Assembly (NCBI GenBank): GCA_039938515.1
Contig: JBDUUL010000024.1
Span: 248,001 to 312,000, forward strand
Direction: 5' to 3'
DNA length: 64,000 nt
From: Nitrososphaera sp.
Lineage (GTDB): Archaea; Thermoproteota; Nitrososphaeria; Nitrososphaerales; Nitrososphaeraceae
Part shown: positions 11,204 to 55,959 of the stretch, piece by piece
Position numbering within the stretch: the first letter of the stretch is position 1
How the letters are laid out: each line of letters opens with the position of its first letter
Notes under the pieces: model-generated
The model's database searches: none
What the model was told of the DNA's origin: nothing
The model's input: the letters and a program-made list of their open reading frames with translations, nothing else
Translations under genes and position numbers: made by a program

Positions 11204-11236
11204 CCCCCTCCCCCTTTGGTGATTCATATGTTATAA
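11204..11236 (+). promoter_or_regulatory. C5-T-C5 / GGTG / TATA promoter module, copy 1
   Basis: CCCCCTCCCCC (11204-11214), a 3-base gap, GGTG (11218-11221), then the palindromic TATA box TTATAA (11231-11236). The central T is 24.5 bases from the TATA centre. The downstream leaderless zinc-ribbon gene starts at 11264, about 30 bases after the TATA centre. The same elements with the same spacing occur at 20438-20471 and 42662-42694. It is probably an upstream activator site; transcription the other way from the same TATA is also possible. Confidence 0.6.
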
Positions 11237-11263: not shown

Positions 11264-11434
11264 ATGGCGGTTGTCGAGCTGACGACACAATCAGAGTCTT
11301 TTGACAGGACGCTGCACGACGAGATTGAGTGCCCCCGATGCAACGGTTCTATGCTCCTGTGCTCCGACTTTGACGGTTTGTACTATTCTTGCGAGGAGTG
11401 CGACTTTATGCTGCACCCCAAGCCTGCCTGCTGA
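11264..11434 (+). CDS. Zinc-ribbon microprotein
   Basis: The 56-residue protein has two Cys pairs, CPRC at residues 23-26 and CEEC at 43-46, the classic spacing of a zinc ribbon, with the C-terminus ending in a further Cys. ATG 11264 lies about 30 bases after the TATA box of the C5-T-C5 promoter module, so translation is leaderless. It is followed after 20 bases by another small gene and probably shares its transcript. It may bind nucleic acid or act as an adaptor; function is unknown. Confidence 0.75.
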   Translation: MAVVELTTQSESFDRTLHDEIECPRCNGSMLLCSDFDGLYYSCEECDFMLHPKPAC

Positions 11435-20437: not shown

Positions 20438-20471
20438 TTATAACATAGATAGCACCTGTGGGGGAGGGGGG
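20438..20471 (-). promoter_or_regulatory. C5-T-C5 / GGTG / TATA promoter module, copy 2
   Basis: Read on the minus strand: the C-tract (plus-strand GGGGGAGGGGGG, 20460-20471), GGTG (plus CACC, 20453-20456) and TATA (20438-20443). The A/T at 20465 is 24.5 bases from the TATA centre and nine from the CACC end, exactly as in copies 1 and 3. It drives the leaderless coiled-coil gene at 20413. AGCACC before and GGTGCT after the G-tract could also pair as a hairpin. Confidence 0.6.
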
Positions 20472-42661: not shown

Positions 42662-42694
42662 CCCCCTCCCCCCAAGGTGTCAGCTTGGTTATAT
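42662..42694 (+). promoter_or_regulatory. C5-T-C5 / GGTG / TATA promoter module, copy 3
   Basis: CCCCCTCCCCCC (42662-42673), GGTG (42676-42679) and TATA ttatat (42689-42694). The central T (42667) is 24.5 bases from the TATA centre and nine from GGTG, the same as copies 1 and 2. The zinc-ribbon gene at 42723 starts 31 bases later. Confidence 0.6.
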
Positions 42695-42929: not shown

Positions 42930-44369
42930 ATGTCAAGCAGGGAGACGACCGGCAGGTACCTCTACGCAGACTATACACCCTTTGAAGATAACAAAAACTT
43001 TCTGACCATGCTCAGGGACTTTGTGTCCCTAACAGAACGATTGTTGAGGGCCAAAGGCGAAATCGAGTCTGCCACCCTAGCGCTATCGGCTGCAAGCAGT
43101 ATGTGCACTGATCTGACCCTGCAGTTTAGAAAATTCAAGTCGGAGGTTTCCGCAAGCATGGACTCATTTAATGAAAGGTTCGACGCAGCGCTGGCAGCCG
43201 GGCCTCAAGGTTCAACCGCGTTTGACTCCAAGCCTGCAATCGCTGGTATGCTTGACGATACAGAAAAGAGATTCGCAGCGGAATGCGGCAGGTATGGCGA
43301 ACACCTTTCATCGAGGGTAGCACAGTTGAAAAAGACATCGGCGGAATATTTGCAGCAATGGCTGCTGGCCGACCATGCCAACCTGCCATATACCATAACA
43401 TCAAGGATGTCTGGCGAGGTGAGTGTTTCGATGGGAGACGATTTGAAGCATTATGCCGTTTCGCGCTCCAGCTCGATAGTTCTGGGCGACGCTGCAGGAA
43501 ACGACGGCGCGCTTATCACGTACTCGTTTGATATCGATGCAACCGACCTGGAATTCTGGAGCCGGAAAAGAAAAGTGTCCGACCTTGGTCTCAAAGAAGT
43601 AGTGCTACCAATCGGCTTTAAGGTGTCGATGTCTGAAAGACTAAGAAAGCCATTCAAGCTGTCCCGCGATAGGCCACCTCAGAGAGAGCCGGATTTTGCC
43701 AACGTCGACAGTTATCACATTATCTCCTTAATATTGCGGGCGAATTCGGTCCTTGAAGCCGTCCTGGCGGCCGATGCGTCCAAACCGGATTATGATTGTG
43801 TAAAGATTGCCTTTCCGGACGTTCAGGATGTTAGCTGCAGGCCTATTATTTCCGCCCTGACCAAAGACAAGCATGGAAATATTGTCGAGGAAAGAGACGT
43901 CCTCCAGCACGACCAAGTGCGCGAATCAGCAGACACCAGAAATATCGTGCTCCTTGGCAAGGCGCTTTACGACAGGGCGGAGGTTCTGAAGGACCCGAAG
44001 GTCTATTGCCTTCGCAGCAGGCTTGCATCTGTCATGGTAAGAATCGGGGATTCCCAGCGCCCCGTTGCCCGAATCGCCGCAGACTCGACAGAGTACGATC
44101 CAACCGCTGCGGTACTATTTCTGGAATCCATCGCACGATCATTCTCCCCCATTGTTTCAAAGGTGGGAGAGAAGAGCAGGGAAGGCGAGCTAATTTTGCG
44201 CCAGGAAATCGAGGGAGGGAGCAGGAACGAACATGTCTTGAGACTCGACGCACTGAGCTCACCCCTTTCATTTTCTGAAGAGGGAATCAGGATTGCAAGG
44301 CTCTTGGGCATAACAAGGCCAGCCCCTGATTCGCATATCGCCACATCGGAACGAACCGAGGCTATATGA
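42930..44369 (+). CDS. Large hypothetical protein with N-terminal coiled coil
   Basis: The 479-residue soluble protein starts with an Ala/Lys/Glu helix region (residues about 25-135) with coiled-coil character, then a mixed alpha/beta domain with repeated Asp-rich strands (GALITYSFDIDATDLEFW). No Walker, nuclease or membrane motif is seen. It follows the zinc-ribbon gene by 24 bases. Related proteins may exist in thaumarchaea, but no family is recognised. Confidence 0.65.
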   Translation: MSSRETTGRYLYADYTPFEDNKNFLTMLRDFVSLTERLLRAKGEIESATLALSAASSMCTDLTLQFRKFKSEVSASMDSFNERFDAALAAGPQGSTAFDSKPAIAGMLDDTEKRFAAECGRYGEHLSSRVAQLKKTSAEYLQQWLLADHANLPYTITSRMSGEVSVSMGDDLKHYAVSRSSSIVLGDAAGNDGALITYSFDIDATDLEFWSRKRKVSDLGLKEVVLPIGFKVSMSERLRKPFKLSRDRPPQREPDFANVDSYHIISLILRANSVLEAVLAADASKPDYDCVKIAFPDVQDVSCRPIISALTKDKHGNIVEERDVLQHDQVRESADTRNIVLLGKALYDRAEVLKDPKVYCLRSRLASVMVRIGDSQRPVARIAADSTEYDPTAAVLFLESIARSFSPIVSKVGEKSREGELILRQEIEGGSRNEHVLRLDALSSPLSFSEEGIRIARLLGITRPAPDSHIATSERTEAI

Positions 44370-55350: not shown

Positions 55351-55959
55351 TAGCCGAATCAATTCTTGAAATCAGTCCTTGTCATTTTCAGCCTGACGGC
55401 TCTCAGCAGCGCCGGCATAAACGGCATCAAGAGACCCCTCCCCGCTATACGCCCCTCGAATGCTTAAAAATCTCCGAATCTGACGTGCAGACAGTGCATG
55501 CCGAATGAGAGAGTCAAGCACGAAAGCTTTCAATGTGCGGTAGTCCGGACATTCCGCTTCTTTCAAATTTCGATCAAGATATTGAGCAACTGGCTGCTCG
55601 CCAGCAGGTGACGCTAGCTATCTGTTAGCAGAGGAGCGTCAAGGGCCGCAAGATTTCTCCGTTTTCATGTAGTGACTTGTGGCGAGTACTTTTTGATACG
55701 CCTACTCCATCCGTCGGAGATGGCAAATCGTGCTTGAAACTGGGAATACAAAATGAGCGAGTGTACAAAAAGAATCGAAACAAGATAACAGCGATGGCAA
55801 TCCCCCAGAGCTCCTTCCAGCTACCGCTGTGGCCTGATTATCCGGTATCCATAGCCATGCCGCTCGAATTTGTCATAAACTCGCTGCAAGCTATTGGCTG
55901 TCACAATGCATATCACAGCATGGTAAATTAAGTGGGATAAAATTCTATATAAGATAGCC
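55351..55959. other. Gene-poor region
   Basis: Two weak frames (55372-55566 minus, 55677-55931 plus) lack promoters and domain motifs. The TATA of the next zinc-ribbon gene (gataaaatt and ttctatata at about 55936-55950) is at the end. Confidence 0.35.

Follow-up and report, generated by a model that had tools for sequence, protein, structure and literature searches.

Three small genes in a 64,000-nucleotide stretch of a Nitrososphaera sp. genome (the whole stretch is hereafter called the window) start shortly after what appears to be one and the same promoter module, and the locus raises the question of what this module is and what it controls. An earlier note, made from the letters of the window only, had claimed that a C5-T-C5 tract, GGTG and a TATA box recur with fixed spacing at three unlinked loci, and had argued for one regulator with a small regulon or, alternatively, for a family of G-starting RNAs transcribed in the opposite direction.

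The three sites proved to be exact. The pattern CCCCTCCCC-N4-GGTG-N10-TATA, with 17 specified bases, matched the window three times, each time without a mismatch, and the claimed distances from the T of the tract to GGTG (9 bases) and to the TATA center (24.5 bases) held at all three sites. With up to three mismatches tolerated, still only these three boxes were recovered, against 0.10 expected, and none of 100 shuffled window sequences reached three. The exact form common to the three sites is CCCTCCCCC-N3-GGTG-N10-TATA. A fourth CCCCTCCCC occurs at positions 55435-55443, with TTAAAA approximately 3 nt beyond the usual distance and no GGTG; it is probably not a member of the group.

Table 1. 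Promoter boxes and associated genes in the window (positions numbered from the first base of the window).
Feature	Position	Strand	Basis
Box 1: C5-T-C5 tract, GGTG, N10, TATA (operator + core promoter, the functional roles being inferred)	11204..11236	+	Sequence; 0-mismatch match 11205-11235
Small zinc-ribbon gene, family A, 56 aa, near-leaderless	11264..11434	+	ATG 11264, 28 nt past last TATA base
Box 2: same C-tract/GGTG/N10/TATA module	20438..20471	-	Sequence; 0-mismatch match 20439-20469
Small helical/coiled-coil gene, 87 aa	20150..20413	-	TTG 20413, 25 nt past last TATA base
Box 3: same C-tract/GGTG/N10/TATA module	42662..42694	+	Sequence; 0-mismatch match 42663-42693
Small zinc-ribbon gene, family B, 60 aa	42723..42905	+	ATG 42723, 29 nt past last TATA base
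479-aa ORF, function unknown	42930..44369	+	ORF list; 24 nt downstream of the family B zinc-ribbon gene

We searched the complete genome to which the window belongs (G000, 2.56 Mb; our own handles for genomes, loci and taxa are given where needed) as well as its relatives. In G000, the exact form found 14 sites at up to two mismatches and 16 at up to three, compared with none and one, respectively, for the reversed-pattern control. The box was present in 18/18 sampled genomes of the genus Nitrososphaera (g1), with reversed controls of 0-1, and the 99%-complete genomes of the genus carried 9-16 boxes each. Genus g4 had five sites and other genera 0-1. When the pattern was tightened and its gap allowed to vary, it matched in 17 of the 18 Nitrososphaera genomes, with a single control match overall. 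Across 84,980 species, the exact pattern was found in 13 stretches, 11 of which carry the name Nitrososphaera sp. The CCCCTCCCC tract on its own is unspecific, and, as it reads the same when reversed, the reversed control is uninformative. Any pattern search favors sites that resemble its pattern, which biases the matches reported here, and part of the sample of relatives consists of genomes of MAG quality.

The count of three loci was thus too low, as G000 has about 15 sites, and the genome-wide and genus-wide search that the earlier note had proposed as a check came out in its favor. The idea of a small regulon is supported by these tests, while a single regulator for all sites is still inferred.

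The architecture of the box was examined at 103 sites. Its consensus reads as a C-tract (CYCCCTCYCCY), RGTGC, N9 and TTATAW, and the logo showed information at positions not seeded by the search: C at -2, C at +16 and T at +25. When the complete genomes G000 and G014 were searched for the C-tract with RGTG and no TATA requirement, about 24 of the 31 sites had a TATA-like box at exactly N10, a few more carried a slightly off-consensus box at the same distance, and most of these were followed by an ORF at the expected distance. The observation that would have refuted the module, namely a motif occurring without TATA at the fixed distance, was therefore not made. The claim of fixed spacing needs one refinement: GGTG-N10-TATA is rigid across the genus, and the C-tract can slide by a few bases. 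It lies ~2 nt nearer at the radA of G000 (L025), and a few nt further off at the DUF72-PolIV genes of G010, G016 and G003 and at the SWIM genes of G002 and G004. Among 89 ORF-bearing sites, 76% had a start codon 22-31 nt past the TATA (a median of 25 nt); the criterion for archaeal TATA-dependent leaderless promoters, a start codon ~22-31 nt after the TATA, is met. Apart from the box, the surroundings of the sites share nothing. We also considered an inverted repeat or dimer site (CACC...GGTG) and rejected it, with CACC directly before the matched tract at only 13/103 sites.

The three window genes are not alone in their families in carrying the box. Homologues of the family A zinc ribbon lie under it in seven other genomes (G008, G010, G013, G014, G015, G020 and G032), close homologues of the 87-aa helical protein in two (G005, L138; G012, L299), and members of family B in seven (G003, G005, G007, G010, G011, G015 and G016) as well as at other G000 loci. 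The promoter conservation predicted for orthologues of these genes was thus found, for orthologues or family members, in other genomes. We infer, from sequence alone, that the three genes are conserved regulon members of unknown function. A role of families A and B as transcription factors was considered and set aside: their PDB profile matches, to zinc ribbons including RNA polymerase subunits, are marginal and too weak. The 479-aa ORF behind the family B gene had no match in a Pfam search, and could be the second gene of an operon with it, a possibility that rests on spacing only.

The main point lay beyond the reach of the window: the regulon includes radA, a DNA polymerase IV and other recombination genes. 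Family membership was defined by proteins that start at the right distance from a box and were grouped between genomes. RadA lay under the box in all 18 Nitrososphaera and g4 genomes that yielded this paralogue, and the boxed protein scored 385 bits against TIGR02236 (cut-off 361).

Taken over loci L143-L172 and L300-L329, the order carries two RadA-family paralogues, with the C-tract promoter at only one of them. The boxed paralogue, RadA-1, occurs in family f1 and several others, and RadA-2 is more widespread. A strict C-tract was found upstream of 29/44 RadA-1 genes and 0/18 RadA-2 genes, as compared to 2.6% of random windows. Of the 15 RadA-1 genes without a strict tract, some owe this to a wrongly placed start codon or to a shifted tract, and at others, those of genus g2 and family f14, the tract is truly absent. 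Outside family f1, the tract is found at radA in families f11, f12, f13 and f16, with f13 also having GGTA-N10-TAAA, which indicates that the RadA-1 promoter is old.

Further genes under the box point to lesion tolerance and to recombination. A 612-aa fusion of DUF72 and DNA polymerase IV has the strict box in G013, G014 and G015 and a shifted tract in G003, G010 and G016; the PolIV genes of G000 and G011 lack the box. The fusion of DUF72 to a complete polymerase IV (603-612 aa; L102, L114 and L123) is an unusual architecture seen in Nitrososphaera; long ORFs related to it are present elsewhere in the family, in other genera. A SWIM protein (Pfam SWIM, 7.6e-10) was boxed at 7/7 readable promoters of close orthologues, in some of which RGTA replaces RGTG. 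Its sequence contains CTC...CKHILA and so meets the criterion of the SWS1/Shu2 family, a SWIM domain with the described signature CXC...CXHXXA (PMC6316741). A zinc-ribbon protein with a Rad51 match (2.4e-5) is also boxed, and DprA is boxed in three genomes only (G005, G010 and G020). The nearest relatives of a boxed radical SAM protein are the Rv2578c/PA0069 families, with scores below their cut-offs, and no solved structure of a relative was found. In addition, the box precedes no fewer than 11 genes or gene starts of TnpB (L091, L112, L121, L124, L280, L281, L283, L284, L285, L286 and L288). The boxed TnpB genes span at least three subfamilies, and IS605-like ends lie near some box sites.

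Box sites without an ORF have in common a transcript-like sequence that begins ~22 nt past the TATA. The RNA would fold into an 11-bp stem (GCCTGYAGRRC/GYYCTRCAGGC) with one UCCCC in the loop and a second after the stem, both outside the stem pairing. The stem shows covariation, with three pairs having double changes that preserve pairing; the 8 pairing-preserving double-change cells compare with 3.1 in shuffles, and this number was reached by 1/500 shuffles. A model of the RNA (R1) trained on eight copies and applied independently of the box gave 11 strong matches (E < 1e-6) in 10 genomes (L063, L064, L068, L069, L086, L104, L116, L181, L210, L214 and L215), and 11/11 had a box exactly 51 nt upstream. 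Three of these matches lie outside the training set, one of them (G007) with a three-mismatch box. Since the RNA search ignored the box, this result is an independent confirmation. Matches with E > 1e-3 had no box at the right distance and were treated as noise. Nitrososphaera genomes that carry the RNA have one or two copies. Rfam covariance models gave no match to it, finding only tRNAs and two sub-threshold matches overlapping tRNAs at other positions, and identity with a known Rfam family was rejected. At one G000 site (L042), a perfect C-tract/GGTG box with TTATT precedes an ORF-less, hairpin-capable region containing TCCTCCCCC. This transcript had no convincing match to R1, and whether the region is a diverged copy of the small RNA remains no more than a possibility.

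The motif, its spacing, its conservation throughout the genus, the gene content and the co-occurrence with a covarying RNA are direct results of these analyses. Our preferred explanation is that the box defines a DNA-damage/homologous-recombination regulon, a functional analogue of SOS, a reading that we consider likely (probability of roughly 0.7); damage induction is unproven and no expression data are available. In this model, the module would be an operator fused to a core promoter. A still unidentified transcription factor, most likely an activator, would bind the C-tract and RGTG directly upstream of the BRE/TATA, recruit TBP/TFB and thereby turn on a dispersed regulon of ~10-20 mostly leaderless transcripts. 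The predicted output comprises the RadA recombinase, the translesion polymerase DUF72-PolIV, the Rv2578c/PA0069-related radical SAM protein and TnpB nucleases, together with likely recombination mediators (the SWS1-like SWIM protein, the Rad51-like protein and DprA), small zinc-ribbon and coiled-coil proteins such as those of the window, and one structured small RNA. Activation rather than repression is inferred, and is suggested by the position of the site just upstream of the BRE/TATA. Likewise, DNA damage or recombination intermediates as the signal are inferred from the gene content. Several observations speak against the damage reading: a repair regulon would not predict the many members that are TnpB genes or functionally uncharacterized small proteins, and repair genes are incompletely covered, as the unboxed PolIV genes and the few boxed DprA genes demonstrate. 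The lack of a tract at the radA genes of genus g2 and family f14 counts against it as well.

Other readings of the box have to be weighed against this one. A competence or DNA-uptake regulon would also employ RadA, DprA, SWIM and Rad51-like proteins, in this case to process incoming single strands. In some bacteria, recA and dprA belong to competence regulons, and here RadA is boxed throughout and DprA in three genomes. However, DprA is boxed in no more than those three, none of the boxed genes seen encodes a DNA-uptake function, and the translesion polymerase and the radical SAM protein better fit lesion tolerance, so that we regard this explanation as unlikely. We are similarly skeptical of a general strong-promoter element without stress specificity, next to which repair genes would lie by chance. 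The absence of expression data leaves room for it, as do those members that are TnpB genes or small proteins whose role is unknown, but there are only ~8-20 sites per genome, the same families recur at them, and one RadA paralogue has the tract while the other does not.

The spread of the module by IS605/TnpB elements, with host genes gaining the box by insertion, could draw on the number of boxed TnpB genes and on the IS605-like ends, yet it appears very unlikely. The sites have no other likeness around them, and the tract at radA is kept across families and is older than any single element. The boxed TnpB genes belong to different subfamilies, which suggests capture of the host's box. Moreover, such a spread would leave basal lineages with boxed TnpB and unboxed radA, and the observed order is the reverse. 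The divergent G-starting RNA proposed in the earlier note is not supported and appears the least likely reading of all. The TATA is nearly symmetric, with a G-tract on the opposite strand ~24 nt away, but beyond the tract on that side (past position -5 of the logo) information does not exceed ~0.1 bit, and the ORFs and the structured RNA begin on the TATA side at a fixed distance.

Returning to the damage regulon, a bolder version of it would be an undescribed SOS-like regulon of ammonia-oxidizing archaea that uses a box of its own and an as yet unknown regulator, which is not LexA and has no tie to ANTTTC. It would bring together a translesion polymerase, only one RadA paralogue of the two, the RNA-guided nucleases TnpB and a small RNA induced by damage. 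Through its UCCCC elements, this RNA would either silence targets or titrate a protein that binds C-rich sequences and that might be the regulator. The balance of evidence does not quite tip towards this version. No description of such a response in ammonia-oxidizing archaea was found in the open-access literature searched. How DNA repair is switched in archaea outside the Sulfolobales is largely open, and ammonia-oxidizing archaea are abundant in soil. With the cis element precisely defined, the genes listed for species that can be cultured and a small RNA added to them, the question becomes experimentally testable, and several families of small unknown archaeal proteins are placed in a functional context for the first time.

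In the damage response of Sulfolobales, Orc1-2 binds the ANTTTC DDRE element (PMC9738581). This system resembles ours in being archaeal and dispersed, and in that co-regulated genes have a short promoter element in common. It differs in that the Nitrososphaera element is a C-tract with RGTG, that the regulon here takes in radA, PolIV and a structured RNA, and that the regulator is unknown. ANTTTC occurred only eight times in the 103 box promoters, scattered and always at different positions; judged by its element, the Orc1-2 system was rejected as an explanation. The SWS1/Shu2-Rad51 paralogue module, or Shu complex (PMC6316741), likewise combines a CXC...CXHXXA SWIM protein with a Rad51-like protein, here united by one promoter type, although the Nitrososphaera genes are unlinked and an interaction has not been shown. 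In Deinococcus radiodurans, irradiation induces the transposition of TnpB-bearing IS200/IS605 elements (PMC2806898); both cases tie such elements to a DNA-damage condition, but in Nitrososphaera the link is a common promoter box, without induction data.

The comparison with the bacterial LexA/RecA SOS response cuts both ways. A search for LexA (PF01726) had no match in G000, with the E. coli positive control detected, and gave only weak matches at the winged-helix level (~20-24 bits) in genus members. LexA was therefore discarded as the regulator, and the box regulon is not a strict SOS system. The site also differs in lying upstream of the TATA, suggesting activation and not repression. What the two have in common is an operator that recurs at scattered loci, in front of the main recombinase, of a Y-family polymerase and of small proteins. 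In an SOS regulon, the recA homologue shares its operator with a Y-family polymerase and with further repair genes, a criterion satisfied here by radA and DUF72-PolIV under the same box.
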